Shown piece after piece: positions 8,448 to 56,178 of a stretch of 64,000 nucleotides of DNA; positions within the stretch are counted from its first letter, which is position 1; every line of letters starts with the position of its first letter. The stretch comes from Gillisia hiemivivida (GTDB lineage: Bacteria > Bacteroidota > Bacteroidia > Flavobacteriales > Flavobacteriaceae). The notes under the pieces were generated by a model, which saw only the letters and a program-made list of their open reading frames with translations, searched no databases and was not told the DNA's origin. Both the position numbers and the translations under genes were made by a program. The stretch covers positions 1 through 64,000 of the forward strand of contig NZ_VORY01000015.1 in the NCBI RefSeq assembly GCF_007997295.1. Direction: 5' to 3'.

Positions 8448-8987
8448 ATGAAATTACTTTTACTCTTGTTTTCCTTGCTACTTTTCACTTCCTGTATTCC
8501 ATTGAGAATTGCACCAAATATCAAGGAGGAAAAACTTATAGTCGCTAAAAAATTCAAAAGGTCACTTCCCAGGAAACACTCTTATGTCTTCGAGGACCCT
8601 AAAGATGCAGATGAATTTTATAATTTTATAAACACTAAGTATGTTTTGAATCATGAAAATGTTGAATATAACGTGCCTATTTTAATTAATGGATATGAAT
8701 ATTTTCTTTCTTTTCATGAAGTTGAAATTCAAACGAAAACCATAAACTTAGTCCCAATTATGATTGATGCCGGACTTGAGTCCAAGGGGATTTCTCCATT
8801 ATTGGAAGAGCATCAATTTTCACGAACTGGAAACTGGTATATAGTTCTAACGGTATCAGATTCTAAATTGAACGATTGTTTAGATCCAGAATATGGGGAT
8901 AGAGAAGTGGTTATAAATTATCTTAAAAAGGAGAGATTAGAATATCTGGCTACTACAAATTATTTTGATGCACTATTTAGAAAGTAG
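8448..8987 (+). CDS. Putative lipoprotein of unknown function
   Basis: The product has 179 aa. A short hydrophobic signal ends in a lipobox, LFTSC (Cys at residue 16), so it should be lipid-anchored. The remainder is a mixed alpha/beta sequence with no family I recognise. A notable part is an ILINGYEYFLSFHEVEI stretch. It stands alone between a palindromic repeat and a convergent operon, which suggests an accessory gene. Its expression and function cannot be inferred. Confidence 0.7.
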   Translation: MKLLLLLFSLLLFTSCIPLRIAPNIKEEKLIVAKKFKRSLPRKHSYVFEDPKDADEFYNFINTKYVLNHENVEYNVPILINGYEYFLSFHEVEIQTKTINLVPIMIDAGLESKGISPLLEEHQFSRTGNWYIVLTVSDSKLNDCLDPEYGDREVVINYLKKERLEYLATTNYFDALFRK

Positions 8988-9019
8988 AATGGTTATTGAT
9001 ATTATAACTATAAATTAAT

Positions 9020-34280: not shown

Positions 34281-34302
34281 GAAAGTTAGAGATACAACTT
34301 TC
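34281..34302. promoter_or_regulatory. Possible operator, inverted repeat before the copper operon
   Basis: GAAAGTT (34281-34287) and AACTTTC (34296-34302) form a 7-bp inverted repeat with an 8-nt spacer. It lies directly upstream of a -7 box, where the -33 region would be. A metal regulator could bind here, but no binding is shown. Confidence 0.3.
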
Positions 34303-34313: not shown

Positions 34314-34393
34314 TATAAGCTGTTATAATCTATGCTTGCTGATTAAGAGGTAAGTATATCAATTATAACAATTATTGTTTATATTTGTTTGTA

Positions 34394-34810
34394 ATGAAAA
34401 AAGGTATCCAGAAATTTTCTTCTTTGATTCTAGCGCTATTAGTGCTGGTTTCCACCTTTTCCTTTACTATCGAAAAACATTTCTGTGGAGATTTATTGGT
34501 AGATCAAGCTGTGTTTTCTAAAGTTAAAGATTGTGGGATGAGTTCCCATAATATGGATGCTATGATGGTTTCAGGAATGCTTACAGATTCTTGCTGTACT
34601 AATACACATCTTGCCATAGAAGGTCAAGACGAGTTAAAGATCTCTTTTGATAAATTAAGTCTGGATCAGCAAGTTTTTGTTTCAGCCTTTACTATTTCTT
34701 TCATTGAACTTTTTGAAAGTTCTCCAGAACAGATAATTCCTTTTAAAGATTATTCCCCACCCCTACTGGTCACAGATATCCATTTGATGGACCAGGTATT
34801 CCTTATCTGA
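34394..34810 (+). CDS. HYC_CC_PP family small secreted protein
   Basis: The product has 138 aa with a signal-like hydrophobic start (residues 9-24), then HFCGD, a DSCCT pair and a late SPPLL. This order (His-x-Cys, Cys-Cys, Pro-Pro) defines the HYC_CC_PP family, seen next to metal-resistance genes in Bacteroidota. It probably binds copper or a related metal in the periplasm, which is inferred from the Cys/His pattern and from its position as the first gene before the RND pump. I use the ATG at 34394. A TTG nine bases earlier is in frame. Confidence 0.8.
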   Translation: MKKGIQKFSSLILALLVLVSTFSFTIEKHFCGDLLVDQAVFSKVKDCGMSSHNMDAMMVSGMLTDSCCTNTHLAIEGQDELKISFDKLSLDQQVFVSAFTISFIELFESSPEQIIPFKDYSPPLLVTDIHLMDQVFLI

Positions 34811-34933: not shown

Positions 34934-37900
34934 ATGTTTAATAAACTTATAAAATATTTCCTCTACAATAGATTAGTAACAATACTATTGTTGCTTTCTC
35001 TGGTAGGATGGGGATTGGTCACTGCTCCATTCGATTGGGATACTGGATTTTTGCCTAAAGATTCGGTTCCCGTAGATGCCATTCCAGATATCGGTGAAAA
35101 CCAGCAAATTGTATTCACAGATTGGCCGGGGAGATCTCCGCAGGATATCGAAGATCAGATCACCTATCCCATGACCTCTACATTATTGGGGATCTCCGGA
35201 GTGAAATCTATTCGTAGTACTTCGATGTTCGGATTTTCTACCATCTACATTATTTTTGAAGAGGATGTAGAATTCTATTGGTCCAGAACCCGGGTATTAG
35301 AAAAATTGAATTCGCTCCCAACAGATCTGCTTCCATCAGGTGTGCAACCAACTTTAGGTCCAGATGCAACTGGACTGGGGCAAGTGTATTGGTATACGCT
35401 GGAAGGTCGCGATCCAGAAGGTAATGTTACCGGTGGCTGGGATCTTAATGAATTGAGATCTATCCAGGATTATTATGTGAAGCTTGGATTAAGTGGAACT
35501 TCAGGAGTCTCAGAAGTGGCATCTGTAGGAGGCTATGTTCAGGAGTATCAGATAGATGTAGATCCAGATGCTTTAAAGGCATATAATATTGGAATTGATC
35601 AGGTGATGATGGCTGTGAAGAATTCCAATAGGGATATTGGCGCCAAAACCATGGAGATCAATAAAGTTGAATATCTGGTTCGTGGATTGGGATATATCGA
35701 GTCTGTTGAGGACATCGAAAATTCAGTAGTTCTTGCCAATGATAATAACACTCCTGTTCTGATTAAAGATCTTGGGGTGGTAAGCTTGGGGCCTGCAGAA
35801 CGCCGTGGAATCTTGGATAAAGGAGGAGCAGAGGTTGTTGGAGGAGTAGTTGTTGCCAGATATGGTTCCAATCCGCTTCAAGTAATTAAGAATACCAAAG
35901 AGAAGATCAAGGAAATATCTGTAGGTCTGCCTCAAAAAACATTGGCCGATGGAACTATAAGCAAGCTTACCATTGTTCCTTTTTATGATCGTACACAATT
36001 AATTGGAGAAACAATAGGAACTCTTGAGAGTGCCCTTTCGCATGAAATTTTAATAAGTATCATTGTAATTATTGTATTGGTCCTAAATCTTAGAGCCTCC
36101 ATCTTAATTTCCAGTTTATTGCCTATTGGGGTGCTAATGACTTTTATTGCCATGCGTTATTTTGGGGTAGATGCTAATGTGGTTGCATTATCTGGAATAG
36201 CTATTTCTATTGGGGTCATGGTGGATGTCGGAATTATTTTTGTTGAGAATATTATTCGGCACTTGGAGATGAAAAAGAATGCGGGAGCCCGAGATAATAA
36301 ATTATTGCAGGTAATTCATAAAGCAACCTTAGAGGTAGCCCCAGCTGTTACAACTGCCTTAGCAACTACTATTGTAAGTTTCTTGCCGGTCTTTTTTATG
36401 GAACATGCAGAAGGGAAGCTATTTAGACCATTGGCATTCACCAAAACTTTTGCCTTGGGAGCAGCATTTATTATTGGGATATTAATATTACCAATGATCA
36501 CTTTTTTCTTTTTCAACATAAAAGTTCAGAAGAAAAAAGTGGTAAGGATTTGGAATATAGTTTTAATAGTTACTGGCCTTTTCTTAGCGATCTATTTCAG
36601 TTTTTGGTTACCATTAGCATTAGTAGTAATAGGAACATTAAGATTATTCGAGGATAAAAATCCAGAGTTTTTAGGAAAGTATTCCAACTTAATCACCGTA
36701 ATAGTGATCCTTGCGGTAACCTTGTTTTTCTTAGCGGAAGAATGGGTGCCACTTGGACATCAAACATCTGTTATTTCAAACTATTTCTTTGTAATTGTAC
36801 TGCTTGCCATTACTCTTTTTATCCTCATGGGTATAGTGAAATATTACCAAGTGATTCTTAACTGGTGCCTATTAAATAAAGGGAAATTTCTTATTCTTCC
36901 ATTAATGACCATTTTATTTGGAATCATGATCTGGTTAGGATTTCCAAAGGTTTTTGGTTTTGCTGCAACCGGTTTTGACAAGGTAGGCTGGAACGTGAGA
37001 AGTACTTCTGTTTGGAGCGGAATGTCTCATACGTTTCCGGGAGTAGGGAAAGAGTTCATGCCTTCATTAAATGAAGGGAGTTTTTTACTGATGCCTACTG
37101 CAATGCCTCATGTTGGGATAGAAGCTTCCAAAGAGATTATGCAAAAACTCGATATAGCAATTACTGACATTCCCGAAGTTGATGTTGCTGTTGGAAAGTT
37201 AGGGCGAATAGAAAGCGCACTGGATCCTGCGCCAATCTCTATGTATGAGACTATCATTAATTATAAACCTGAATTTATTCTTACTGAAAAGGGCAAACCA
37301 GTGGCCTTTAAAGTTGATGATGATAATAAATTCATATTAAGATCTGGAGATAGCTTAACCAATGAAGAAGCCTTAGAAGGCAGGACAGAAAGGGAAGATC
37401 TAATTGAAGATGAGGATGGTGATTATTATAGGAATTGGCGCTCTCATATTAAAAGTCCAGATGATATTTGGGAAGAAATAGTAAAACGAACCAATATTCC
37501 GGGAGTGACCTCTGCCCCTAAATTACAACCAATAGAAACCAGATTGGTGATGCTACAAACCGGGATGCGGGCTCCAATGGGAATAAAGGTTTACGGGCCA
37601 GACCTTCAAACAATTCAGGATTTCGGAATTGAACTGGAGGAATTGTTAAAGCAAGTACCTTCTGTAAAGGCTGAAGCAGTTTTTGCAGATAGAACCGTTG
37701 GGAAACCCTATTTAGAAATTGATATTGATAGAAACGCCATTGCCAGATATGGCTTAAGTATTGAAGACGTGCAGCAAAGCTTGGAAACTTCCATTGGCGG
37801 AATGGAGATCACCACTACCGTGGAAGGTCGAGAGCGATATCCTGTTAGAGTACGTTATCCAAGAGAGTTACGGGATGACCCGGAAAGCCTCAAAAAAATC

Positions 37901-38800
37901 TTAGTGCCTACAAATAGCGGTGCTCAAATTCCACTAGGTGAATTAGCCGAATTAAAATATACCAGAGGTCCACAAATGATAAAAAGTGAGGATACTTTTT
38001 TGGTGGGCTATGTGCTTTTTGACAAAAGAGATGGTTTCGCTGAGGTGAATGTAGTAGATGATGCCCAAAAATTTTTGCAGGACAAAATAGATGCCGGAAC
38101 GCTGAAAGTTCCTGCAGGTGTGAGTTATAAATTTTCAGGGAATTATGAGAATCAGGTAAGAGCGGTAAAACGATTGGCAATTGTGATCCCGATAAGTTTG
38201 ATCTTGATCTTTATGTTACTTTATTTTCAATTTAAAACCATAATCGCGTCTGCAATTCACTTTTCAGGAGTATTTGTGGCTTTTGCGGGAGGATTTATAA
38301 TGATCTGGCTTTACGGTCAAACTTGGTTTATGGACTTTGCCATTTCTGGGATGAATATGCGGGACTTGTTTCAGATGGGAGATATCAATTTAAGCGTTGC
38401 AGTTTGGGTGGGGTTCATTGCCTTATTCGGAATCGCAACCGATGATGGTGTTTTAATGGGAACTTATATTCACCAAGTGTTCGAAAGGAAAAAACCTAAA
38501 ACGGTAGAGGCAGTTCGGGCAGCTGTGATGGAAGCAGGATTAAAAAGAGTGCGTCCTGCTATGATGACCACTGCAGTAACAATTATTGCTCTCTTCCCTG
38601 TTCTAACATCTACCGGAAAAGGATCTGATATTATGGTGCCTATGGCAATTCCAATAGTTGGTGGAATGATCATCCAGATCATGACCATTTTTGTGGTTCC
38701 TGTGCTTCAAGCATATTGGAGAGAAACGGTGGTAAGTTCCCCTTCTAACTCCCCCGAAGGTGGAGAATTAGCTCCTGATAATCTGAAACCTAAACAATAA
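34934..38800 (+). CDS. CusA/CzcA-type heavy-metal efflux RND transporter
   Basis: This is the inner-membrane pump of a tripartite efflux system, probably for Cu(I)/Ag(I). It has 1288 aa against about 1050 for CusA. TM1 begins near residue 10 and the VDAIPDIGENQQIVFTDWPG porter start is typical. Later blocks are GVMVDVGIIFVENI, FGIATDDGVLMGTYI and MRPAMMT-like VRPAMMTTAVTIIALFP. The extra length comes from added hydrophobic segments (about 530-650), an acidic periplasmic insertion (about 775-850), and a C-terminal tail SSPSNSPEGGELAPD that looks repeat-derived. TolC and CusB partners follow directly. Confidence 0.94.
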   Translation: MFNKLIKYFLYNRLVTILLLLSLVGWGLVTAPFDWDTGFLPKDSVPVDAIPDIGENQQIVFTDWPGRSPQDIEDQITYPMTSTLLGISGVKSIRSTSMFGFSTIYIIFEEDVEFYWSRTRVLEKLNSLPTDLLPSGVQPTLGPDATGLGQVYWYTLEGRDPEGNVTGGWDLNELRSIQDYYVKLGLSGTSGVSEVASVGGYVQEYQIDVDPDALKAYNIGIDQVMMAVKNSNRDIGAKTMEINKVEYLVRGLGYIESVEDIENSVVLANDNNTPVLIKDLGVVSLGPAERRGILDKGGAEVVGGVVVARYGSNPLQVIKNTKEKIKEISVGLPQKTLADGTISKLTIVPFYDRTQLIGETIGTLESALSHEILISIIVIIVLVLNLRASILISSLLPIGVLMTFIAMRYFGVDANVVALSGIAISIGVMVDVGIIFVENIIRHLEMKKNAGARDNKLLQVIHKATLEVAPAVTTALATTIVSFLPVFFMEHAEGKLFRPLAFTKTFALGAAFIIGILILPMITFFFFNIKVQKKKVVRIWNIVLIVTGLFLAIYFSFWLPLALVVIGTLRLFEDKNPEFLGKYSNLITVIVILAVTLFFLAEEWVPLGHQTSVISNYFFVIVLLAITLFILMGIVKYYQVILNWCLLNKGKFLILPLMTILFGIMIWLGFPKVFGFAATGFDKVGWNVRSTSVWSGMSHTFPGVGKEFMPSLNEGSFLLMPTAMPHVGIEASKEIMQKLDIAITDIPEVDVAVGKLGRIESALDPAPISMYETIINYKPEFILTEKGKPVAFKVDDDNKFILRSGDSLTNEEALEGRTEREDLIEDEDGDYYRNWRSHIKSPDDIWEEIVKRTNIPGVTSAPKLQPIETRLVMLQTGMRAPMGIKVYGPDLQTIQDFGIELEELLKQVPSVKAEAVFADRTVGKPYLEIDIDRNAIARYGLSIEDVQQSLETSIGGMEITTTVEGRERYPVRVRYPRELRDDPESLKKILVPTNSGAQIPLGELAELKYTRGPQMIKSEDTFLVGYVLFDKRDGFAEVNVVDDAQKFLQDKIDAGTLKVPAGVSYKFSGNYENQVRAVKRLAIVIPISLILIFMLLYFQFKTIIASAIHFSGVFVAFAGGFIMIWLYGQTWFMDFAISGMNMRDLFQMGDINLSVAVWVGFIALFGIATDDGVLMGTYIHQVFERKKPKTVEAVRAAVMEAGLKRVRPAMMTTAVTIIALFPVLTSTGKGSDIMVPMAIPIVGGMIIQIMTIFVVPVLQAYWRETVVSSPSNSPEGGELAPDNLKPKQ
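38736..38780. repeat. Palindromic repeat read as the end of the RND pump
   Basis: The stretch holding CCTTCTAACTCCCCCGAAGG, followed by TGGAG, contains two nested arm pairs, CCTTC/GAAGG and CTCC/GGAG. It encodes SPSNSPEGGEL, a low-complexity tail beyond the last helix of the pump. Comparable 'CTCCCCCGAAGGxGGAG' palindromes are, from memory, common between genes in Flavobacteriaceae. Confidence 0.45.
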
Positions 38801-38808
38801 AGAAACAG

Positions 38809-40110
38809 ATGATGAAAAAATCTATATCAAAATATTTTCAAAAGCGATTTCCAGGGATGAAATTTCTGCTTCTTTTGCTCCCACTTTGGGGCATGGGGGG
38901 ATACTCGCAAACATTGGACACTTACTTAGAAATAGCAGTTAAGAACAATCCTAAGTTGAAATCTTCTTATGCCCAGTTTGAAGCTGCAATGAGAAATTCC
39001 CCACAGGTATCAAGTTTGCCAGATCCAACTCTAACTATGAGCGGTCTGGGAAGAATGATAGAAACCAGAGTAGGAGCTCAGGAGGCAAGATTCAATTTAA
39101 TGCAGATGTTTCCCTGGTTTGGTACTTTGGAAGCAAAAGAAAATGCCGCCAACTTAATGGCCGAAGCGAAATTTCAAAAATTCCTTGACTTAAAAAATCA
39201 GCTGATCTATGATGTAAAATCGGTATATGCTGAATTGTACACAATTTCAGAAACTATACAGATTAAAGAGGAGAATCTTGAAATTCTTGAATCTTACAGG
39301 GAATTATCCTTAAGCCGATTCAAAAGTGGCGATGGTGCTATGGTAAATGTGGTTAAGGTAGATATAGATAAAGATGCTGCTATTACAGAGATTGAGCTTA
39401 TGAATGAAATGCTGATTCCTGTAAGCACTAAATTCAATTTACTTTTAAATAGAGATCTTCAAGAAACCATATTTGTTCAGGATACTTTAAAACTTTCAGG
39501 ACTTCCTATGGAGATAAATTCAGAAGATAATCTGGAATCGCATCCTTTATTGAAGGCAATAGAAAAGGAAAAGGCATCTTATATAGCAGAACAAACCGTA
39601 GCAGAGAAGCAAGGAATGCCAAATATTGGTATTGGGGTAGATTATTCAATCATTTCTAAAAGAACAGATGCTAGTCCTGAAGGGAATGGTCAAGATGCTA
39701 TCATGCCTATGGTCTCTATAAGTCTGCCTATTTTCAGAAAAAAATATAAAGCTTCAAGAGAGCAAGCAGAATTCTTAGTATCAAGTAGTATAAGTGAGCG
39801 AGAAGCTATGAGAAATGAGCTGCAAAGTATGCTGGCAATGACTATTTATGAATATCATAAATCTGAAAAACTGATTGAGCTATACAATAGGCAACTGCTT
39901 AGTTCCGGCCAAGCCAATAAATTATATATCTCTGCTTTTAGCAACGCCACAGGAGATTTCGAAGAAGTTTTAAGAATGAATCAAGATATATTGTTGCTTA
40001 AAACTCAAAAAATAGAAGCTATTAAAAACGGATTTATCGCTGGTGCAAAGTTAGATTACTTGTTTTCTGGCGATGTAAATTCAAATTCAGAAATTAATAA
40101 AACTCCATAA
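38809..40110 (+). CDS. TolC-family outer-membrane efflux protein
   Basis: This is the outer-membrane channel of the RND system (CusC role). The 433-aa protein has a signal peptide (residues about 12-34, GYSQ), two outer-membrane-efflux repeats of long helices with beta strands, and the typical LPDPTLTMSGLG and FPWFGTLEAKENAA segments. The latter is common in copper-type members of Bacteroidota. It begins 8 nt after the pump gene, so the two are coupled. Confidence 0.92.
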   Translation: MMKKSISKYFQKRFPGMKFLLLLLPLWGMGGYSQTLDTYLEIAVKNNPKLKSSYAQFEAAMRNSPQVSSLPDPTLTMSGLGRMIETRVGAQEARFNLMQMFPWFGTLEAKENAANLMAEAKFQKFLDLKNQLIYDVKSVYAELYTISETIQIKEENLEILESYRELSLSRFKSGDGAMVNVVKVDIDKDAAITEIELMNEMLIPVSTKFNLLLNRDLQETIFVQDTLKLSGLPMEINSEDNLESHPLLKAIEKEKASYIAEQTVAEKQGMPNIGIGVDYSIISKRTDASPEGNGQDAIMPMVSISLPIFRKKYKASREQAEFLVSSSISEREAMRNELQSMLAMTIYEYHKSEKLIELYNRQLLSSGQANKLYISAFSNATGDFEEVLRMNQDILLLKTQKIEAIKNGFIAGAKLDYLFSGDVNSNSEINKTP

Positions 40111-40120
40111 TCTTATTAAG

Positions 40121-41842
40121 ATGGAAAACAAAAAAATAATACTTATCGTAATTGCAACTCTAATTATTGGAGCTGGTATTGGTTGGATCTTAAAACCTTC
40201 AAACTCTAATTCTGAGGACAAGGAAATCCATGATCACCTTGGGGAAACCGCAGACCAGATTTGGACCTGCTCTATGCATCCGCAAATCAGACAATCTGAG
40301 CCAGGAAATTGCCCTATTTGTGGGATGGAACTTATTCCTTTAAAAAGCGATAATCTAGAATCTGAAAACTATACAATGAGTGAAGACGCCATGAAATTGG
40401 CAAACATCACTACAATGACGGTAGGAAAGGGAAGTGCTAACAAGGAATTGAGACTGAACGGGAAAGTACAAGTAGATGAGCGAAATGCGTATTCTCAATC
40501 TACCCACATCCCGGGGAGAATAGAACAACTTTCAATAAATTTTACCGGAGAGAAAGTTAGCAGAGGTCAAACCCTGGCTACTGTATACTCACCACAATTG
40601 GTAACTGCGCAAGAGGAATTGCTGCAAGCTGAAAGTATTAAAGAGAGTCAGCCGGAGTTGTTCGCAGCAGCAAAGGAAAAGCTGAGAAACTGGAAGATCG
40701 GCGATTCACAGATCAACAGGATCTTATCTACCGGAAAAGCAATTCAGCGATTTCCAATTAGCGCAGATGTAAATGGAATTGTTACAGAAAAAATGGTAGA
40801 TCTTGGGGATTATGTAGAACGTGGAATGCCAATTTATGAGATCTCCGACCTTTCCAAGGTTTGGGTGCTTTTCGATCTTTATGAAAGCGACCTGAACTGG
40901 GTAAAAGAAGGAAGTAAGATCACTTACACCATAAATTCATTACCGGGGGAAACTTTTGAAGGAAAAATAAGTTTTATAGATCCTTTGATAAATAGCCAAA
41001 CCAGAGTAGCTTCTGCTCGAGTTGAGGTTAATAATAAAGAAGGGAAGTTAAAACCTGAAATGTTTGCTTCTGGAGTAGTGGTAAATGACATCTCTGGAAA
41101 AGAAACCCAAGAAATAGTCATCCCAAAGTCTGCAGTATTGTGGACAGGAAAGCGATCTGTGGTTTATATAAAAGAAACTCTAGGAGATAGAGCTGAATTT
41201 ATTTTAAGAGAAGTTGTTTTGGGCCCTGCTTTAGGGGATTCTTATATAGTGACTGAAGGTTTGCTAGCAGGTGACGAAATAGTTAGCAACGGTACTTTTA
41301 CGGTAGATGCTTCGGTACAGTTGTCTGGAAGGCCTAGCATGATGAACCCAAAAATAGATACAGATAAAGAGGATGCCTTTATTAAAGTTGCTATTTCAGA
41401 AAAAGAAAAACAGGAATTTGAAGCTGTTTTGTCTAATTATTTAAAGTTTAAAGACGCACTTGTAGAAGACGATTTTTCTTCAGCAAAAAAGTTAAATACA
41501 AAAATGGGTGATCAAATAAAGAGCATCAATAAATCACAATTTAACAGCCAAGTTGGAAAGATCTGGGAAAGTTTTCAGAAGGAATTGCTAGCCTCTACAA
41601 ATACAATGGCTTCTGCCAAAGAGATTAAGGAGATGAGGAACAGTTTTGATGAGTTTTCAGAAACAATGATTGGAATGGTTAAAACCTTTCAGTTAAACAA
41701 TAAAGAACTTTATGTGTTGCATTGTCCTATGGCAGATAATAATAAGGGAGCCGATTGGTTGAGTGCTTCTTCAGAAGTTAAAAATCCTTTTTACGGTAGC
41801 GCTATGATAACCTGCGGGGAATTAAAAACTACAATAAAATGA
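40121..41842 (+). CDS. CusB-like RND periplasmic adaptor with metal-binding and DUF3347 domains
   Basis: The 573-aa protein links pump and channel. After a membrane anchor (residues 5-24) comes a heavy-metal-binding module (about 48-73, WTCSMHPQIRQ to CPICGMELIP), then the HlyD/CusB adaptor (about 95-400: barrel-sandwich, hairpin and beta barrel). A C-terminal DUF3347 domain (about 420-573) carries CPM at 535-537 and the late NPFYGSAMITCG. Both ends thus carry Cys/Met ligand sets. The same DUF3347 motif recurs in two separate lipoproteins of this island. The last codons overlap a 43-residue gene by 4 nt. Confidence 0.93.
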   Translation: MENKKIILIVIATLIIGAGIGWILKPSNSNSEDKEIHDHLGETADQIWTCSMHPQIRQSEPGNCPICGMELIPLKSDNLESENYTMSEDAMKLANITTMTVGKGSANKELRLNGKVQVDERNAYSQSTHIPGRIEQLSINFTGEKVSRGQTLATVYSPQLVTAQEELLQAESIKESQPELFAAAKEKLRNWKIGDSQINRILSTGKAIQRFPISADVNGIVTEKMVDLGDYVERGMPIYEISDLSKVWVLFDLYESDLNWVKEGSKITYTINSLPGETFEGKISFIDPLINSQTRVASARVEVNNKEGKLKPEMFASGVVVNDISGKETQEIVIPKSAVLWTGKRSVVYIKETLGDRAEFILREVVLGPALGDSYIVTEGLLAGDEIVSNGTFTVDASVQLSGRPSMMNPKIDTDKEDAFIKVAISEKEKQEFEAVLSNYLKFKDALVEDDFSSAKKLNTKMGDQIKSINKSQFNSQVGKIWESFQKELLASTNTMASAKEIKEMRNSFDEFSETMIGMVKTFQLNNKELYVLHCPMADNNKGADWLSASSEVKNPFYGSAMITCGELKTTIK

Positions 41843-42600: not shown

Positions 42601-43170
42601 ATGACCAAAGAATACTACATAAAAAATATGGTTTGCGACCGCTGTATAAAAGTGGTGAGAAATGAATTAAATGCTAGTGGAGTAAATACTTTGGAAGTTG
42701 TTTTAGGAAGAGTGATAATAGATACCGAGGACGAAATTTCTGATGAGCAGAAATTGAATCAGGTTCTAGTCGAGAATGGTTTTATACTTATTAGCAGCCC
42801 TGAATCAATACTATCTGAAGCTGTTAAAATCGAATTGATCAACCTATTGGAGAATCTGCCTCTTAAAATTGAAGGGACTCTATCCAACTTACTTTCGGCT
42901 CATCTTAATTCTGATTACTCCAAGATCAGCAAGATATTTTCGATTACTGAAAAGATCACTATTGAGAAGTATTTTATAAAACTGAAGATTGAAAAAGTAA
43001 AGGAATTAGTCCAGTCTCAGGAGTATAATTTCACAGAGATAAGTCAGCTTTTAGATTATAATAATATGAATTATTTATCTCGTCAGTTTAAGAATGAAAC
43101 AGGCATGAGTTTGACAGAATATAAAGGCTTAAATGAGGATTTTAGGAATTCTTTAGACCAAATAATATAG
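42601..43170 (+). CDS. HMA-like/AraC hybrid transcription regulator, first copy
   Basis: The 189-aa protein is built from two halves. Residues about 1-65 resemble an HMA metal-binding domain (IKNMVCDRCIKVVRNEL, with the Cys12-x-x-Cys15 pair in the place of the usual CxxC loop). Residues about 105-185 are an AraC-type helix-turn-helix (FTEISQLLDYNNMNYLSRQFKNETGMSLTEYK). The first DNA-binding helix pair is less canonical (YFIKLKIEKVKELV). I infer that Cu(I) or a similar ion binding to the Cys pair controls DNA binding. A close paralogue lies at 52264-52830. Confidence 0.82.
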   Translation: MTKEYYIKNMVCDRCIKVVRNELNASGVNTLEVVLGRVIIDTEDEISDEQKLNQVLVENGFILISSPESILSEAVKIELINLLENLPLKIEGTLSNLLSAHLNSDYSKISKIFSITEKITIEKYFIKLKIEKVKELVQSQEYNFTEISQLLDYNNMNYLSRQFKNETGMSLTEYKGLNEDFRNSLDQII

Positions 43171-43244: not shown

Positions 43245-43733
43245 ATGAATTCACAAGAAAAAGGTCAACACGAAATGAAAGGAAATAATTACGCTAAGTT
43301 TTTCCTGATGCTTGGTTTATCCTTTCTGGCTATGTATATCACAATGTACTTAAACACTTATGCAATTGATCATGTGTATTTCAGTCTCACAAGATTTTAT
43401 ATGAGCTGTTTAGGAATATCTGCAATGGCGGTTATAATGCTATCTCTTATGCTAAACATGTATACAAACAAGAAAAAGAACATTGCGATCTATGTAGGGA
43501 GCTTGGTGCTATTTTTAGGTGCATTAGGATTGGTAAGGGCTCAAAGTCCAATTATTGGGGATGTGCTTTGGATGAAAGCGATGATCCCACACCATTCCAT
43601 TGCAATTTTAACGAGTGAGCGTGCAGCTATATCAGATCCAGAGGTGAAGAAATTGGCAGAAGACATTATAAAAGCCCAAAAAAGGGAAATAACTGAAATG
43701 AAAAGAATGATCGAAAGATTGGAGAATGAATAA
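43245..43733 (+). CDS. DUF305 membrane protein
   Basis: The 162-aa protein has three to four hydrophobic segments (about 19-39, 46-66, 80-98) and a C-terminal DUF305 part with MKAMIPHHSIAILTSERAAISDPEVKKLAEDIIKAQKREI. The conserved MIPHHS and the Met/His residues suggest a metal-binding role. DUF305 proteins are commonly found with copper genes. It has a 74-nt gap behind the regulator and a TACTTTAG box in that gap. Confidence 0.85.
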   Translation: MNSQEKGQHEMKGNNYAKFFLMLGLSFLAMYITMYLNTYAIDHVYFSLTRFYMSCLGISAMAVIMLSLMLNMYTNKKKNIAIYVGSLVLFLGALGLVRAQSPIIGDVLWMKAMIPHHSIAILTSERAAISDPEVKKLAEDIIKAQKREITEMKRMIERLENE

Positions 43734-43882: not shown

Positions 43883-46285
43883 ATGAAATTGAAAATACAC
43901 CTATTTATTCTAGCCCTAATTACAGGAGCTTCAGGATATTGTCAGAATGAACTGGAAGCTTCGGTGGAAGGAAATGTTAATAATCTTCCGGTAAAGGAAT
44001 ATAAAATCACGATAAATCAGGAGTCTGTAAATAAAGCAGGAAAAGAGGTAATGGGAATGACCATAAATGGAAGTATTCCCGGTCCGACCCTCGAATTTAC
44101 CGAAGGGGAATATGCTGTGATCTATGTGGAAAATAAAATGGATGTGGAAACCTCCATTCACTGGCACGGCATGTTACTACCTAATTTTTATGATGGTGTC
44201 CCTTATCTTACCACACCACCCATTATGCCGGGAACAACGTTTAAATATGAATTCGAAATTAAACAGCATGGTACTTATTGGTATCATTCGCATACCATGT
44301 TGCAGGAACAAAGCGGGGTGTATGGTTCTTTATTGATAAATCCAAAAGAAAAGCTACTGGATTATGATAAAGATCTGGTACTGTTGCTCTCAGACTGGAC
44401 TAATGAAAAACCCAAGAATGTCCTTAGATTCCTGAAAAGGGGAACCGAATGGTACAATATCAAAAAAGGAACGGCAACTCCTCTTAACCAGGTAATTGCA
44501 AGAGGTGCTTTGGGCGCACAAGTCGATTTTTGGAGACAGCGAATGGAAGGGGCAGATATTGCTGATATATACTATCCTGCATTTTTAATAAATGGAGAAG
44601 AAAAAATAGAATACCCTGAGTTTAAACCCGGTGAAAAGGTAAGGCTAAGGATAATAGATGGTGCAGCATCAACTTCCTTTTGGATGACTTTTGGAGGTAA
44701 TATGCCTACGTTGGTTTCTGCTGATGGGAAAGATGTGGTACCGGTTCAAAAAAATAAAACTTTTATTGCTGTTGCTGAAACTTATGATTTTATCGTGACC
44801 ATCCCCGATGATGGGAAAATAGAATTCAAAATTATGGCACAGGATGGTTCGGGTACTGCCTCTGCTTTTCTTGGCACCGGGAGAATACTTCCGGCGCCCG
44901 AAGTAGCAAGACCCGACAAGATAGGGATGATGCAGAAAATGGCCAAGATGAAAATGAAAATGGGTGCTCCTGCTTTGCAATTTAATCCTAGTAACCCAGA
45001 TCCTTATAAACTCAAGGAAAAATGGGGAATGAAAATGGATGGGATGGACCATGGTGATATGAAGATGAAGAAAGATTCCTCTAAGACAGGGATGGACCAT
45101 TCCAAAATGGATCGCTCTAAGATGGAAATGAAAAAAGATTCCACGATGTCTGGAATGGATGATTCGAAAATGGAAATGAAGAAGGATACCATGAAAATGG
45201 TTAATTCTCCTACAGAAAATATGTCGATGGATGGGATGAAAGATATGAAAATGGAAGAATCTGATGGCATGAGTATGTTTTCAGAATATAATTATGATTA
45301 TTTGAAATCTCCTGAAAAGACAAGTTATGACGAAGATATTCCTGTCACTGAAATTCTATTGAATTTAACGGGGAATATGGCTCGCTACATCTGGAGTTTC
45401 AATGGGGTGCCTTTAGCTGAATCAGATAAGATAAAAATTAAAGGCGATGAGGTTACCCGCATCACTTTTAATAATCTTACGATGATGCACCACCCTTTGC
45501 ACCTTCATGGACATTTTTTCAGGGTAATAAATGAGAACGGGGAATATTCACCCTTAAAACACACGGTTAATGTGCCGCCCATGAAGGAGGTAACTATTGA
45601 ATTTTATGGAAATGAGTATGGAGACTGGTTTTTCCATTGCCACATTTTGTATCACTTGGATTCAGGTATGGCAAGAGTTATAAGTTATGATACTAAAAGG
45701 GATGAACGAATGAAACGTTATCCAGTAAGCAATCTTATAAGAGAAACCAATAAATTTTATACCTGGGGGATGGTAGATGCTGCATCCCACATGACAGAAT
45801 TAAATGTGGTGAGTTCCAATATCAGGAATCAATTTACTGCCCTGGCTGAATACGGATGGAATGAAAATATTGAAGCAGAATTCACCTATGAATATTATTT
45901 AAATGACTGGGTGCGACTGTTTGGTGGTGTGAATGTAGAGAATGAAATGGAAAACAGTATAGAAGAACTCAGTACCACGGCTATTGGGGGTATTCGGTAT
46001 TTTACTCCTTATATGTTTGCCCTCGACCTTCGTGTAGATAATAAGTTGAGGCCTCAAATAAGCCTGGCTCGGGAAATCATGATCTTTCCACGATTGGTAT
46101 TATTTGGGGAATATGAATTTCAGGCAGATTTTGGATGGGTAGATGAGCTTCCTGAAGGTGATAATTTTGAAAAAGAAGAGACCTGGAGCACAGGGCTCGA
46201 ATATTTTATATCTAAAAATTTCTCTTTAATGGGGAGCTATGATAACAGATTTGGTGCCGGTGGTGGATTATCTATAAGGTTTTAA
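43883..46285 (+). CDS. Multicopper oxidase fused to a CopB-like outer-membrane barrel
   Basis: The 800-aa protein has a signal peptide and CopA-type cupredoxin domains. Copper ligands are visible in all four blocks: HWHG (His93, His95), HSH (135, 137), HPLHLHGH (537-544) and HCHILYHLDSGM (585-596, with axial Met596). A Met/Lys/Asp-rich insertion lies at about 350-466. From about residue 620 a stretch of about 180 residues looks like a CopB (PF05275-type) barrel ending in F. The joined CopA-CopB arrangement suggests periplasmic Cu(I) oxidation at the outer membrane. The downstream APC gene starts 3 nt after the stop. Confidence 0.88.
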   Translation: MKLKIHLFILALITGASGYCQNELEASVEGNVNNLPVKEYKITINQESVNKAGKEVMGMTINGSIPGPTLEFTEGEYAVIYVENKMDVETSIHWHGMLLPNFYDGVPYLTTPPIMPGTTFKYEFEIKQHGTYWYHSHTMLQEQSGVYGSLLINPKEKLLDYDKDLVLLLSDWTNEKPKNVLRFLKRGTEWYNIKKGTATPLNQVIARGALGAQVDFWRQRMEGADIADIYYPAFLINGEEKIEYPEFKPGEKVRLRIIDGAASTSFWMTFGGNMPTLVSADGKDVVPVQKNKTFIAVAETYDFIVTIPDDGKIEFKIMAQDGSGTASAFLGTGRILPAPEVARPDKIGMMQKMAKMKMKMGAPALQFNPSNPDPYKLKEKWGMKMDGMDHGDMKMKKDSSKTGMDHSKMDRSKMEMKKDSTMSGMDDSKMEMKKDTMKMVNSPTENMSMDGMKDMKMEESDGMSMFSEYNYDYLKSPEKTSYDEDIPVTEILLNLTGNMARYIWSFNGVPLAESDKIKIKGDEVTRITFNNLTMMHHPLHLHGHFFRVINENGEYSPLKHTVNVPPMKEVTIEFYGNEYGDWFFHCHILYHLDSGMARVISYDTKRDERMKRYPVSNLIRETNKFYTWGMVDAASHMTELNVVSSNIRNQFTALAEYGWNENIEAEFTYEYYLNDWVRLFGGVNVENEMENSIEELSTTAIGGIRYFTPYMFALDLRVDNKLRPQISLAREIMIFPRLVLFGEYEFQADFGWVDELPEGDNFEKEETWSTGLEYFISKNFSLMGSYDNRFGAGGGLSIRF

Positions 46286-48225: not shown

Positions 48226-48843
48226 ATGAAAAAATCAAAATCAATATTAGGAGTAATGCTACTGGCAATAATAGCTTTCACCTTGACATCATGCCGAGAT
48301 TCTAAGAAAGAAGATGATCACGAAATGGATCAAGACGATATGGAGATGGAACATGATAATATGGAAATGAATAATTCCTCAATGAATTCATCTGATAATA
48401 TGGCAATTGATCAAGATAAATCTGCAACCGATATTATTATTGTGAACTATTTAGAGCTTAAAAATGCTTTGGTTGCAGATAATACGGAAGAAGCGAAAAC
48501 TTTTGGGGCTGTTCTAGCAAATTTATTTGCTGAATTTGACAAATCAGCTTATTCATCAGAACAAAATAAAGAACTTACAGACATTATTGAAGATGCAAAA
48601 GAACATGCAGAACATATTGCGGAAAATACGATTGACCATCAAAGAGAACATTTCGAGATTCTAAGTAAAGATGTGGCCGACTTGATTGCAATCACGGGAA
48701 CCTCAAAAAAACTGTTTCAAGCTTATTGTCCAATGTTCAACGATGGAAAAGGAGCAATTTGGTTAAGTGAATTTAAGGAGATTAAAAACCCTTATTATGG
48801 TAGTAAAATGCTTACGTGTGGAACTGTACAAAAAGAGATCTAA
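48226..48843 (+). CDS. DUF3347 lipoprotein, Met/Asp-rich linker
   Basis: The 205-aa lipoprotein (LTSC lipobox, residues about 20-23) has an acidic Met-rich linker (about 28-65, repeated DMEMEHDNMEM pattern) that could bind metal. A DUF3347 domain follows. Near the end is the shared motif CPMFNDGKGAIWLSEFKEIK, then NPYYGSKMLTCG. In RND adaptors this domain sits at the C-terminus, whereas here it is free and membrane-anchored, so it may deliver metal to the pump. That delivery is inference. Confidence 0.85.
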   Translation: MKKSKSILGVMLLAIIAFTLTSCRDSKKEDDHEMDQDDMEMEHDNMEMNNSSMNSSDNMAIDQDKSATDIIIVNYLELKNALVADNTEEAKTFGAVLANLFAEFDKSAYSSEQNKELTDIIEDAKEHAEHIAENTIDHQREHFEILSKDVADLIAITGTSKKLFQAYCPMFNDGKGAIWLSEFKEIKNPYYGSKMLTCGTVQKEI

Positions 48844-50885: not shown

Positions 50886-51620
50886 ATGGTAAACAGACAC
50901 ACCGCTAAAAAAATCAGAAAAACACACCGGTATCTGGGTTTATTTATCGGGATTCAGTTTTTAATGTGGACAATTAGTGGTTTGTATTTTAGCTGGACAG
51001 ATATAGACGAAATTCATGGAGATCAGTTTCTTAAAGCAAACGTAGAAGAAGCTAGTTTTAGTAATCTAATAAGTCCTTCTCAGCTTCAGTTAAATTCAGA
51101 AATAACATCTTTAGAATTAATGGAGATTGGTAAAAGACCCTTTTATTGGGTAAATGAAACTAGCCTTTTTAATGCTATAAGCGGAACAAAGCTTAAAGGA
51201 ATATCTCAAGAAGATGCATTAGCCGTGGCAAATAAGCATGTTTTAAAGGAGCTGGAGGTTTCAAATATCGAAAAAATAAATGATACAGATAAGCATCATG
51301 AATACAGAGGGAAGCCATTGCCTGCTTATGTGATCTCTTATAAGTCTTGGGAAAATATTAAGGCATATGTTGCTGTAGAAAATGGTAAATTTGAAAGTAT
51401 AAGACATCGGGATTGGCGTTGGTTCGATTTTTTATGGATGACGCATACTATGGATTATGAAGCAAGAGATGATTTTAATAACTTACTTTTGCGTTCGTTT
51501 TCTGTGCTAGGGTTATTAACAGTTTTAAGTGGATTTACCCTATGGTTTACCTCGTCACCAAGTATTAGAAAAGTTTTGAATAAAAATAAAAAGAAGAAAA
51601 GAAATGAAAAAGCAAATTAG
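50886..51620 (+). CDS. PepSY domain membrane protein
   Basis: The 244-aa protein opens KIRKTHRYLGLFIGIQFLMWTISGLYFSW, a PepSY-associated TM segment (helix about 15-36). A periplasmic PepSY-type region follows, then a second C-terminal helix (about 205-225, LGLLTVLSGFTLWF). Relatives act in metal uptake or reduction (PepSY_TM/PiuB-like), but the substrate is unknown. HDTD-like His/Asp residues (NDTDKHHEYRG) may contact metal. The last bases overlap the next gene by 17 nt. Confidence 0.83.
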   Translation: MVNRHTAKKIRKTHRYLGLFIGIQFLMWTISGLYFSWTDIDEIHGDQFLKANVEEASFSNLISPSQLQLNSEITSLELMEIGKRPFYWVNETSLFNAISGTKLKGISQEDALAVANKHVLKELEVSNIEKINDTDKHHEYRGKPLPAYVISYKSWENIKAYVAVENGKFESIRHRDWRWFDFLWMTHTMDYEARDDFNNLLLRSFSVLGLLTVLSGFTLWFTSSPSIRKVLNKNKKKKRNEKAN

Positions 51621-52200
51621 AAACGGTTTTATGATAGCTGCTATGGTAGCAAGTTTTGGATTTTATTCCTGTGGAGATAACAAGAATAAAAACGAAGAAA
51701 CCACGACAGTAATGGATGAAGAGATGAATTCTGAAGGCCAAGCAGATTCTACAGAAATATTAAATGTGGAAGAAGTGATAAATGTTCAGTTCAAGGAAAC
51801 TACCACTCAAGCAGCTTTCGAGCATTATATTGGAGTGAAATCGGCATTAGTAGCATCAGATAATACTGAAGCACAGAAGCATGCTAACATGTTGTTGGAA
51901 AGTTTAAAAGAAGTTAAGGCAGAGCAAACTTTATTGGATGCTACTAAACAATTAGCAGAAGCAACAGACATTAATAAACAACGTGAAGCTTTTTCAAAGA
52001 TCACTAATGGAATGGAAGTGGTCTTAACTGGATCAGTTTCTTCTGGAGAGATCTATAAGCAATTTTGCCCTATGGCTTTTGAAGGAAAAGGTGATTACTG
52101 GTATTCTTCTTCTTCAGAAATTAGAAACCCCTATTTTGGTGATAAAATGCTAAAATGTGGCCGAGTTGAGGAAGTTATTAATAACCAAGCAACTAATTAG
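51604..52200 (+). CDS. DUF3347 lipoprotein, second copy
   Basis: The 198-aa lipoprotein (lipobox FYSC, near residue 23) has an acidic Asn/Glu linker and a DUF3347 domain, with FCPMAFEGKGDYWYSSSSEI, then RNPYFGDKMLKCG near the C-terminus. It is a paralogue of the domain at 48226-48843 and of the C-terminus of the RND adaptor, which share this spacing. It overlaps the PepSY gene by 17 nt, so the two are co-translated. A hairpin (52209-52252) follows and separates it from the regulator. Confidence 0.85.
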   Translation: MKKQIRNGFMIAAMVASFGFYSCGDNKNKNEETTTVMDEEMNSEGQADSTEILNVEEVINVQFKETTTQAAFEHYIGVKSALVASDNTEAQKHANMLLESLKEVKAEQTLLDATKQLAEATDINKQREAFSKITNGMEVVLTGSVSSGEIYKQFCPMAFEGKGDYWYSSSSEIRNPYFGDKMLKCGRVEEVINNQATN

Positions 52201-52208
52201 TTAACATT

Positions 52209-52252
52209 AAACTGAGCTTGTCAATTTCACAATACTGGCAAGCTCAAGTTTA
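52209..52252 (+). terminator. Hairpin before the second HMA/AraC regulator
   Basis: GAGCTTG (52214-52220) pairs with CAAGCTC (52239-52245), with flanking A and T bases extending the stem. The tail TAAATTTTAT is weakly T-rich. It ends 11 nt before the regulator start, so it may reduce readthrough from the DUF3347 gene. Confidence 0.4.
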
Positions 52253-52263
52253 AATTTTATAAC

Positions 52264-52830
52264 ATGGAAATTGACGTTTTACATATTAAAAACATGGTCT
52301 GTGATCGCTGTATCCATGCAGTTCGTGACATCTTAGACCGCAATAATATCTCCTATAGAACTATTACATTAGGAACTATTGAGCTTAGCACACCCATCAA
52401 TTCAATTGAGACAGAAAATCTTCAGAAGGAATTTAAAAAGCTTGGCTTTGAAGTTATTTCAGAAAAAAATCAACGTATAGTAAAGCAGATCAAGGCGATC
52501 ATCTTAAATGATATTTTTCAGGAAAAGCTTAAGAATAATCAAAACTTATCGGTGACCTTGAGTAATCAACTTCATTTCGATTACAGCCATTTAAGTTCTA
52601 TATTTTCTAAGACTGAGGGGAAAAGTATTCAGACTTATCAAAATGAACTCAAGGTAGAGCGCATAAAAGAATTGCTGGAATATGATGAACTCAGCATCAC
52701 CGAAATTGCGGATACATTAGGTTTTGGAAGTGCCGCTTATCTTTCTACTCAATTTAAAAAGATTACTGGATTTACTCCTTCTCATTATAAAACTTCTAAA
52801 AAGATCAGAAATACACTGGACACCTTTTAA
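52264..52830 (+). CDS. HMA-like/AraC hybrid transcription regulator, second copy
   Basis: The 188-aa protein matches the first copy in layout. An N-terminal HMA-like half carries IKNMVCDRCIHAVRDIL (Cys13-x-x-Cys16), and the C-terminal half has a full AraC DNA-binding region (VERIKELLEYDELSITEIADTLGFGSAAYLSTQFKKITGFTPSHYK). The second helix-turn-helix here is more canonical than in the first copy. Presumably it senses Cu(I) and controls neighbouring genes. Two such regulators 9.7 kb apart in one island may respond to different metal levels or targets. Confidence 0.85.
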   Translation: MEIDVLHIKNMVCDRCIHAVRDILDRNNISYRTITLGTIELSTPINSIETENLQKEFKKLGFEVISEKNQRIVKQIKAIILNDIFQEKLKNNQNLSVTLSNQLHFDYSHLSSIFSKTEGKSIQTYQNELKVERIKELLEYDELSITEIADTLGFGSAAYLSTQFKKITGFTPSHYKTSKKIRNTLDTF

Positions 52831-53042: not shown

Positions 53043-53050
53043 TAACTTTG
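53043..53050 (+). promoter_or_regulatory. -7 promoter box of the Cys-rich storage protein
   Basis: TAACTTTG matches TAnnTTTG exactly and ends 24 nt before the ATG at 53075. The TTG at 53048 is part of this box, so it is not a start codon. Confidence 0.5.
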
Positions 53051-53074
53051 AATAGAAACTTAAAAACCAGAGTT

Positions 53075-53395
53075 ATGAGAAATGAAAAATTGATTCATGC
53101 ATTAGGAAACTGTATTAACCACTGTAATTATTGTGCAGATGCTTGCCTAGATGAAGACAATGTGAAAATGATGGTAGACTGCATTAGAGTAGACCGGGCT
53201 TGTGCAGAAGCCTGTGCGGCTTTAAGTCAAATTCTGGCAACTAACTATAAAGATGTCCAAGGTCTAGTAGATTATTGTAAACAGGTTTGCAAGTCATGTG
53301 CAGAGGAATGTGAGAAACATGACACACAACATTGTAAAGATTGTGCACAAGCATGTCGCGAATGTGAAAAAGCATGCGAGGCCTATGCCGCTTAA
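53075..53395 (+). CDS. Four-helix-bundle copper-storage protein (Csp, DUF326-like)
   Basis: The 106-aa protein contains about 16 Cys residues spaced along four predicted helices (for example Cys13, 17, 20, 24, 36, 43 and 47, then clusters from about 68 to 101). This is the signature of Csp proteins, which hold many Cu(I) ions inside a bundle of Cys-lined helices. It has no signal peptide, so it is the cytosolic type. I use the ATG at 53075; the TTG at 53048 lies in the promoter box. It is followed 65 nt later by the copper ATPase. Confidence 0.9.
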
Positions 53396-53460
53396 TAAAA
53401 ATTATTAATTTAATTAGTTTAAAACCTGGATTCGTCTGGGTTTTCTTGAATTTAGAAGAC

Positions 53461-56178
53461 ATGAAACATAAGTATAAAATTTCTGGAATGACCTGTAATG
53501 GTTGCAGAACCCATGTAGAAAACACGTTAAAGGATATAAAAGGTGTTTCTAACGCATCTGTAGATTTGGAAAAAGCTGAAGCAGAAATAGAAATGGATAC
53601 TCACGTTGAACTGAGTCAGTTTCAAAAAGCTTTAAAAGTAGATGGAGGAGGTTATGAGATACATGAACCAGGAAAAATCATGAGTCATACTTATGATATT
53701 ACAGGAATGACTTGTAATGGCTGTAGTACACATGTGGAAAAGGTTCTAAACGCTGTAGAAGGAGTCTCTAAAGCCATAGTAGATCTTGAAAAGAAGGAAG
53801 CCGTTGTAGAAATGGAATCTCACATTAAGATTCAAAAATTTCAAGAGGTATTAGAGAAAGAAGGAGGAACCTATCAGATTTATCCTCACGGAAAAGCTCC
53901 AAATGCAAAGGAGAATGGGTCTTCTAAAACCAATGAAAAAGGAACAGGAACTTTTTATTGCCCGATGCACTGTGAAGGGGATAAGACCTATAATGAACCT
54001 GGAGACTGTCCAGTTTGCGGGATGGATCTTGTAGAAGAAATGAGTTTAAAATCATCAGCTGCACAGTATACGTGTCCAATGCACCCAGAGATCGTAAGAG
54101 ATGAGCCTGGAGATTGCCCCATTTGCGGAATGGACCTAGTGCCAATGAAAGCAGATGTTTCTGCGGAAGCAAAAACTTACATGAAGCTACTCAAAAAATT
54201 TAAGCTCGCAGTACTCTTTACCCTTCCAATCTTTTTGATCGCGATGTCTGAAATGATTCCGGGAAACCCGCTTTATGATTGGTTGGATATGAAAACCTGG
54301 AATTGGATCCAGTTAGGCCTTTCCATTCCTGTAGTATTTTATGCTACTTGGATGTTTTTTGAAAGAGCTTATAAATCTATAATCACTTGGAACCTTAATA
54401 TGTTCACCTTAATTGGAATAGGTGCAGGTGTGGCTTGGGTTTTTAGTGTATTTGGATTGCTTTTCCCCGGCCTTTTTCCAGATCAGTTTAAAACCGATGC
54501 TGGTACGGTGCATATTTATTTAGAAGCGGCTACCGTTATTTTAACGCTGGTGCTTTTGGGTCAGCTATTAGAAGCCAGAGCCCACAGTAGAACGAATAGC
54601 GCTATAAAAGAACTTTTAAAACTCGCTCCAAATAAAGCTTATAAGATTGTTGATGGAGTAGAAAAAGAAGTGCCTACAGATCAAATTATGGTGGGCGATC
54701 TCTTACGTGTAAAACCAGGAGACAAAATTCCTGTAGATGGAACAATTGAAAAGGGTCAGAGTAGCCTAGATGAATCTATGATTACAGGTGAGCCTATTCC
54801 AGTAGATAAGGTTGAAGGTGATAAAGTGAGTTCTGGAACTATCAATGGGAACCAAAGCTTTACCATGAAAGCCGAAAAAGTTGGAAACGAAACTTTACTG
54901 GCTCAAATTATAAAAATGGTGAATGATGCCAGTAGATCGCAAGCGCCAATTCAAAAATTAGCCGATAGAATTTCAGGTTATTTTGTGCCTATTGTAGTGT
55001 TGATCTCTGTGATCACCTTCGTTATTTGGGCAATCTATGGTCCAGAACCTTCGTATGCTTATGCCATGATAAACGCTATTGCAGTCTTAATAATTGCATG
55101 CCCTTGCGCTCTGGGACTAGCCACACCAATGTCTGTGATGGTTGGTGTTGGGAAAGGCGCACAAAATGGAGTGCTTATTAAAAATGCTGAGGCTTTAGAG
55201 CAAATGGATAAAGTAGATGTGCTTATTATTGATAAAACTGGAACAATTACTGAAGGAAAGCCTTCAGTAGAAAAAGTAGTTTCATTAGAATCTTCTTATT
55301 CTGAAGATGAGGTTTTAAGATTTGTAGGCTCTGTGAACTCAATGAGCGAACATCCACTCGCCCAGGCAACAGTAAATTTCGCGAAAGATAAAAATGTGAG
55401 TTTAATTGAAGCAGTCAATTTTAATTCGGTTACTGGAAAAGGGGTGACTGGGGAAATTGATGGAAAAAAAGTTGCTATTGGAAATGATAAGTTGATGGTT
55501 GAGGAGAATGCAGAGATAACTTCAGAATTTAAAAGTCAGGTTGAGAGCGAACAAGAGCAGGGTAAAACAGTTTCTTATGTTGCAGTAAACCATGAAATTG
55601 TGGGATATATTACCATCACCGATCCTATTAAAAAAACCAGTGCCCAAGCTATAAAGGAATTGATGGATGATGGGATAGAGGTTATTATGTTGACAGGAGA
55701 TAACAAAAAGACAGCTCAGGCTGTAGCAGATAAACTTCATCTATCTGGGTTTAAAGCGGGAATGTTACCTGAAGATAAATTGAATGAAGTGAAAAAACTC
55801 CAAGATCAAGGAAAATTAGTTGCCATGGCAGGCGATGGGATTAACGATGCACCTGCTTTAGCTAAATCTAATGTAGGAATTGCCATGGGAACGGGAACCG
55901 ATGTAGCTATAGAAAGCGCAAAGATCACTTTGGTAAAAGGAGATCTGCAAGGAGTTGTAAAGGCAAAAAGATTAAGTGAAAAGGTGATGAGAAACATCAA
56001 ACAGAATTTATTTTTTGCACTTATCTACAATACTTTAGGAGTTCCGGTTGCTGCCGGGGTACTTTATCCCTTTTTTGGATTGCTGTTATCCCCAATGATC
56101 GCAGCATTAGCAATGAGCTTTAGTTCAGTCTCTGTTATTGCAAATGCGTTGAGGTTAAAAAATGCAACAATAGATTAG
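53461..56178 (+). CDS. copA: Copper-translocating P1B-type ATPase with four N-terminal metal-binding modules
   Basis: The 905-aa pump moves Cu(I) from the cytoplasm out across the inner membrane. Two HMA domains have CxxC loops at Cys12/15 and Cys85/88. Two short heavy-metal-binding modules follow at about 166-195 and 202-232 (FYCPMH and YTCPMHPE, each ending CGMDLV). Then come eight helices, TGEP (actuator), CPC (Cys547-Cys549), the phosphorylation motif DKTGT (Asp591), SEHPLAQ and GDGIND (791-796). The ATG at 53461 starts the first HMA domain; an earlier frame start at 53374 would overlap the Csp gene. Confidence 0.95.

Follow-up and report, generated by a model that had tools for sequence, protein, structure and literature searches.

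The window, a stretch of 64,000 nucleotides from a Flavobacteriaceae-like genome, carries on its forward strand a copper block that extends from about 34.4 to 56.2 kb, as read from the open reading frame (ORF) list together with Pfam and NCBIfam matches. The first part of the block comprises, in order, a gene for an HYC_CC_PP family protein (34385-34810, +; NCBIfam NF047658), genes for a CusA-like RND pump, a TolC-like outer membrane factor and a CusB-like adaptor with HMBD and DUF3347 domains (34934-41842, +), a DUF2911 gene, a gene for a small AraC-type regulator, hereafter regulator 1 (42601-43170, +; 189 residues, ATG start), and a gene for a DUF305/CopM-like protein (43245-43733, +), assigned by Pfam and by an NCBIfam CopM match below cut-off. 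The second part continues with a multicopper-oxidase-like protein (43883-46285, +), a transporter, two DUF3347 proteins, a haem-binding protein, a second regulator (regulator 2; 52264-52830, +; 188 residues, ATG start), a Csp1-like protein and a CopA-like P1B ATPase with two N-terminal HMA domains (53374-56178, +). The residues of this ATPase match those of the copper ATPases of relatives, and its true start probably lies downstream of the listed start at 53374. CusA, TolC, oxidase and CopA are named in the window by resemblance, while the domains of the CusB-like adaptor were assigned by Pfam.

Since only 38 bases separate the end of the DUF2911 gene from the start of regulator 1, and 74 bases separate its end from the DUF305 gene, regulator 1 is probably part of a long operon. 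Upstream of regulator 2, a strong terminator-like hairpin (52207-52253, +; RNA folding energy -19.8 kcal/mol, z -6.6) lies between the DUF3347 gene and the regulator, and may represent either a terminator or a means of attenuating the regulator 2 gene. Hairpin-like inverted repeats were also seen by eye upstream of the nearest relatives of regulator 2 (loci L009 and L010). The block contains three copies of DUF3347 (40121-41842, 48226-48843 and 51604-52200), one of them fused to the CusB-like adaptor, and by reading each copy ends with a CP(M)...CG-like cysteine pattern. The Csp1-like protein (53048-53395), a four-helix, cysteine-rich protein that adjoins the CopA-like ATPase, matches NCBIfam TIGR04401 at 2e-12, below the cut-off, and is a possible cytosolic copper store; a homologue was found nearby in one of 80 related loci (the best 80 of 510).

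The original prediction that regulator 1 joins an HMA-like domain with a CDRC metal site to an AraC helix-turn-helix (HTH) is borne out by a family profile, by AlphaFold2 modelling, by Foldseek and by Pfam HTH_18. HTH_18 scores above its cut-off of 33.6 bits in both regulators (4.7e-9 and 36.9 bits for regulator 1; 3.3e-17 and 63 bits for regulator 2), and neither protein has a cupin or AraC_binding family match in Pfam at E<=1, in agreement with the claim that no sugar-binding cupin is present. Both regulators miss the Pfam HMA cut-off (regulator 1 scores 14.7 bits against 24.8 and regulator 2 is not listed), and because the single-sequence scores fall below this cut-off we name the domain HMA-like and not a member of Pfam HMA. 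Across the family, 26 of 52 members have an HMA match at E<=1, the best being 1.8e-4. A profile built from 52 homologues matches HMA chains with higher significance (ATP7B, 7xuk, 4.3e-8; CopA of the B. subtilis type, 1p6t, 1.3e-6; CopZ, 6ff2, 2.6e-4), along with other copper ATPase domains; these metal-domain matches fall in its N-terminal third, at profile positions 3-74, and the C-terminal half matches AraC-type DNA-binding domains (3lsg, 3.1e-13).

The AlphaFold2 model of regulator 1 (mean pLDDT 92.9, pTM 0.86) contains strands at residues 2-8, 30-34, 37-41 and 62-64 and helices at 13-25 and 45-58, which DSSP resolves as a beta-alpha-beta-beta-alpha-beta domain over residues 2-64 (42604-42792, +). 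A long linker helix follows at residues 67-84 (42799-42852, +), leading to the helices of the AraC-type double HTH at residues 98-175 (42892-43125, +). The ferredoxin-like fold whose lack in residues 1-65 was to have counted against the prediction is thus present, and the model of regulator 2 (mean pLDDT 89.3, pTM 0.70) has the same N-terminal part and the same arrangement. Foldseek searches with the regulator 1 model returned AraC-type DNA-binding domains at the top (3mkl, TMt 0.80-0.81; also 1bl0 and others) as well as the copper chaperones CopZ (6ff2, TMt 0.77; 2qif, 0.75) and Atox1 (1fee, 0.70), with MerP and ZiaA domains lower in the list; the chaperone E-values are weak (0.014-0.03) because just one third of the chain aligns. 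The fusion of an HMA-like to an AraC domain is therefore real, as judged from sequence profiles and structural models. The two regulators share only 35-36% identity and fall in separate parts of the family tree, so the view that their common build is no chance fusion was right and even understated, as proteins of this build are found widely across the phylum.

Both regulators carry MVCDRC, a sequence of the MxCxxC type, in the first loop of the HMA-like domain. The CDRC of regulator 1 (42634-42645, +) supplies C12 and C15, the sole two cysteines in its translation, and the counterpart in regulator 2 is at residues 13-16 (52300-52311, +); a DNA pattern located both motifs. In 52 aligned family proteins N9, V11, C12, R14, C15, G36, G60 and F61 are invariant; these members were picked for a CxxC motif, so that the invariance of C12 and C15 is partly by construction. 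Likewise, C12, R14 and C15 formed part of the pattern by which a larger set of 136 CxRC proteins and 26 proteins of a sister clade was selected. F61 was not part of that pattern, and is phenylalanine in 135 of the 136 CxRC proteins.

HMA-AraC regulators constitute a family that is spread through the Bacteroidota and that the annotations seen do not set apart. With regulator 2 as the query, matches at 1e-10 were obtained in 51 of 100 genomes of the taxonomic family and in 145 of 296 genomes of the phylum, a minority of them to the AraC part only. The DNA motif encoding KNMVCxRC is present in 124 of the 296 sampled phylum genomes, including 57 of the 73 from the window's class, and a reversed control gave no matches. 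Of 99 class genomes sampled evenly over families, 27 have the exact motif, which is therefore not universal in the class. The closest named relative of the window protein among the matches listed belongs to a Gillisia metagenome-assembled genome (MAG) and is 86% identical to it across residues 1-145. On plasmids of Spirosoma and Mucilaginibacter the gene sits in copper or metal islands; the plasmid records seen label the proteins simply as AraC or helix-turn-helix regulators, which makes the sensor half easy to overlook. Two further family members come from records outside the phylum: that of L099, labelled as a MAG of the gammaproteobacterium Algicola, is likely to be mislabelled or contaminated because its protein groups among those of Allomuricauda in the tree, and that of L145, labelled as the alphaproteobacterium Amaricoccus, may reflect transfer or contamination. 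A viral origin was dropped, as two scans of viral contigs, which would detect close relatives only, revealed no relatives of either regulator.

To assess the genomic context of the family, we counted copper markers, defined as tblastn matches to the CopA, CusA, CusB, DUF3347 or multicopper oxidase proteins of the window, in loci picked by motif pattern (the best 80 of 510, of which 65 exceed 15 kb). Markers were present in 59 of these 65 long loci compared with 1 of 20 random 20-kb stretches (Fisher p 8e-13) and with 2 of 13 loci of other AraC genes (p 1e-7); of the latter two, L204 itself holds an HMA-AraC gene and L201 has a weak ATPase match (28% identity). A set of 58 loci found by BLAST and not picked by motif comprises 54 that encode CxRC and 4 that encode SxRC, and a copper marker lies within 1.5 kb in 46 of the 54 as opposed to none of the 4. 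At the level of whole genomes, a copper ATPase is encoded in 123 of the 124 motif-bearing genomes of the phylum, against 155 of the 172 without the motif.

The SxRC proteins belong to a sister clade that reads KYMVSxRC. It forms a single group of 26 rows nested within the CxRC proteins, with support of 100/98, in a tree of 87 of 163 sequences (all 25 SxRC, both window proteins and 60 random CxRC) in which the loop columns were kept. In this clade N9 is replaced by tyrosine in 25 of 26 proteins, C12 by serine in 25 of 26 and F61 by leucine or methionine in all 26. Among 20 loci of the clade chosen by BLAST (L210-L229), copper markers occur in 3, each a weak CopA or CusA match, compared with the 59 of 65 for the named long loci (p 3e-10). 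Of the 19 loci examined, 10 have response-regulator or kinase relatives no more than five genes away. This joint loss of the metal ligand, the facing aromatic residue and the copper neighbours is as expected if the loop is the copper site. Since the cysteine-lacking proteins form one clade, the comparison counts as about one event, strong as an argument but weak in numbers. Within the clade, L220 again has a cysteine at position 12. Several loci hold two copies of the gene, and clade members are also found at L026, L029, L030 and L037. At L215 a diverged second copy (approximately 8473-9135) reads KYMVCLRD, with the first cysteine present and the second gone, the opposite of the change in the main part of the clade.

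As originally proposed, the regulators do not resemble the familiar cytosolic copper sensors: no CueR, CsoR or CopY family appears in the Pfam or NCBIfam lists of either protein at E<=1 (for regulator 2, the best 25 of 31 NCBIfam matches). In none of the 99 class genomes did a CueR or CopY model exceed its cut-off, whereas control genomes do score; matches below the cut-off at E<=1e-15 numbered five for CueR and one for CopY. CsoR-family genes are present in 84 of the 296 phylum genomes and in 4 of the 73 from the window's class. An apparent mutual exclusion between the motif and CsoR over the whole sample (p 5e-15) was set aside, because it derives from one family whose 64 genomes all have CsoR-family genes and none the motif, and p becomes 0.10 when that family is removed.

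The assignment to copper is well supported by the controlled genome context, by a clade in which two loop residues and the copper neighbours were lost together, and by the failure to find CueR or CopY in the class sample. The proposal of a one-component copper sensor holds in its copper assignment as far as comparative analysis can tell, but not as a peculiarity of the window cluster, given that the family extends across the phylum. Our main reading, to which we give a probability of roughly three in four, is that HMA-AraC acts in the cytosol as a one-component regulator that responds to Cu(I) and controls copper export, and that it is a putative transcriptional activator. Cytosolic Cu(I) would bind to the HMA-like domain at C12 and C15 in the MVCxRC loop, and M10 and F61, the latter predicted to sit in the loop facing the metal site, would shape the metal loop, as residues of this kind do in CopZ. 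Loading with Cu(I) would then alter the position of the HMA-like domain and linker helix relative to the AraC double HTH, a putative allosteric step, whereupon the double HTH would switch on the neighbouring copper-export genes. Members of the AraC family are mostly activators, and for this reason activation is favoured over derepression. The likely targets are the CopA-type ATPase, the Cus-like pump, the multicopper oxidase and the regulator's own operon.

A variant that stays within the copper reading treats the HMA-like domain as a docking site, which would accept Cu(I) from, or bind to, either the HMA domains of CopA or a chaperone resembling CopZ; the regulator would in this way read the loading state of the export machinery. 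Chaperones with a ferredoxin-like fold and a CxxC loop pass Cu(I) among themselves, and both features recur here. Gene order, which counts in favour of the main reading as well, points the same way: an ATPase with the Cu(I) signature was found in 45 of the 80 named loci (the best 80 of 510), with none detected in the other 35, and the nearest such ATPase is downstream on the same strand in all 45 loci and within 3 kb in 37. Moreover, the CopA-like protein of the window has two N-terminal HMA domains, and a free HMA protein is encoded nearby in one annotated plasmid locus. We regard docking as a credible refinement, though an unlikely one as it stands, and retain direct sensing of Cu(I) as the preferred reading.

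It is considerably less probable that the regulators respond to another soft metal or to a thiol or redox signal (Ag, Hg, Zn, Cd or disulfide stress), with copper genes being just part of the regulon. HMA CxxC loops bind several soft metals, arsenic genes also occur in one plasmid locus, and the second cysteine is kept in each of the 20 cysteine-lacking loci (18 read SxRC by pattern, L215 reads KHMVSLRC by reading and L220 has cysteine 12). Six of the 65 long loci lack any copper marker and have mixed neighbours: L082 has a cation-efflux-like gene (by resemblance), by reading, a Met/His-rich exported protein is encoded downstream in L126 and L138, and an exported protein with CxxC upstream in L131, while nothing metal-like was recognised by reading among the neighbours of L104 and L130. 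Against this possibility, and in favour of the main copper reading, ATPases bearing the full Cu(I) signature (CPC, NX6YNX4P and MXXSS) are encoded in 42 of the 65 named long loci (from the best 80 of 510), as compared with 0 of 20 random stretches, 1 of 13 AraC loci and 0 of the 20 sister-clade loci, and the DUF3347, multicopper oxidase and Csp1-like neighbours also point to copper. That the HMA-like domain is a mere dimerisation or stability module, with regulation constitutive or set by expression level, is very improbable: ferredoxin-like folds often dimerise and AraC relatives such as MarA act without a sensor domain, but the loop residues are conserved, and C12, F61 and N9 change together in the clade that left the copper clusters.

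With regard to the promoters on which a Cu(I)-responsive regulator would act, direct and inverted repeats were sought in the intergenic regions of the window. A perfect inverted repeat, GAAAGTT-N8-AACTTTC (34281-34302), stands directly before a -7-like element, TACATTTG (to 34313), upstream of the HYC_CC_PP gene. It is a candidate site in the genome of the window, but was rejected as an operator of the family, since it is not intact upstream of 20 HYC_CC_PP relatives, where the best match has 4 to 6 mismatches. A motif search of 17 intergenic regions recovered hardly anything apart from the -7 box TAnnTTTG, with no conserved operator beyond this Bacteroidota element. When the spacing of repeats was analysed statistically in sets of 21 and 135 upstream regions, the peaks were only modest, and some fell at multiples of three, a pattern that coding DNA would produce. 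Pairs of TGTTAA spaced 19-21 bp apart recur, by eye, upstream of HYC_CC_PP genes in several marine flavobacteria; given their variable spacing and the relatedness of the promoters, we make no claim for them.

Each half of the protein has known counterparts. CueR (of the MerR family), CsoR and CopY are, like HMA-AraC, cytosolic one-component regulators of copA-type genes that use cysteine ligands, but their folds differ in both halves. The N-terminal domain shares the ferredoxin-like fold and MxCxxC loop of CopZ, Atox1 and the N-terminal HMA domains of CopA, differing from these in its fusion to a DNA-binding domain, in the CxRC sequence and in the asparagine before the methionine. As in HMA domains of the CopZ type, an aromatic residue follows the glycine of the facing loop (GF here, GY in CopZ). 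The C-terminal double HTH is common, by Pfam and fold, to AraC/XylS family members such as AraC, MarA, Rns and GadX, whereas the sensor half is HMA-like in place of the sugar-binding cupin of AraC. The archaeal CopT/CopR proteins also combine a metallochaperone-like metal domain (TRASH) with an HTH in one protein, although the metal domain, the HTH and the domain of life are all different. YbtA, an AraC-type regulator of the yersiniabactin genes, is needed for a copper response but acts through a Cu(II)-siderophore complex, and the accessible text of the article describes it with an AraC-type ligand-binding domain and does not mention an HMA domain for it (PMC8725597).

In the open-access literature, to the extent of the text available, we found no description of an HMA-AraC regulator. 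A survey of copper signalling in marine bacteria lists, in the portion available, only two-component and ECF homologues for the Bacteroidota, few of which were sampled, and no known one-component copper sensor (PMC10141476). A sensor family missing from the model set of that survey would explain the gap. Judging from the sequence comparisons and structural models, HMA-AraC is probably a copper sensor of a kind that the Bacteroidota seemed to lack. A broader and more tentative proposal, which we rate at slightly below even odds, is that in much of the Bacteroidota the cytosolic copper sensor would be not CueR, CsoR or CopY but this AraC regulator, which would have captured the domain of a copper chaperone and be loaded by exchanging Cu(I) directly with the CopZ/CopA HMA network under its control. 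In one branch the first of the metal cysteines would then have disappeared along with the aromatic residue of the loop, while the second cysteine stayed; this branch would have departed from the copper clusters and turned to another signal, perhaps thiol or redox, beside response-regulator and kinase genes. This cysteine-lacking clade offers a ready contrast for dissecting how a chaperone fold was turned into a switch.
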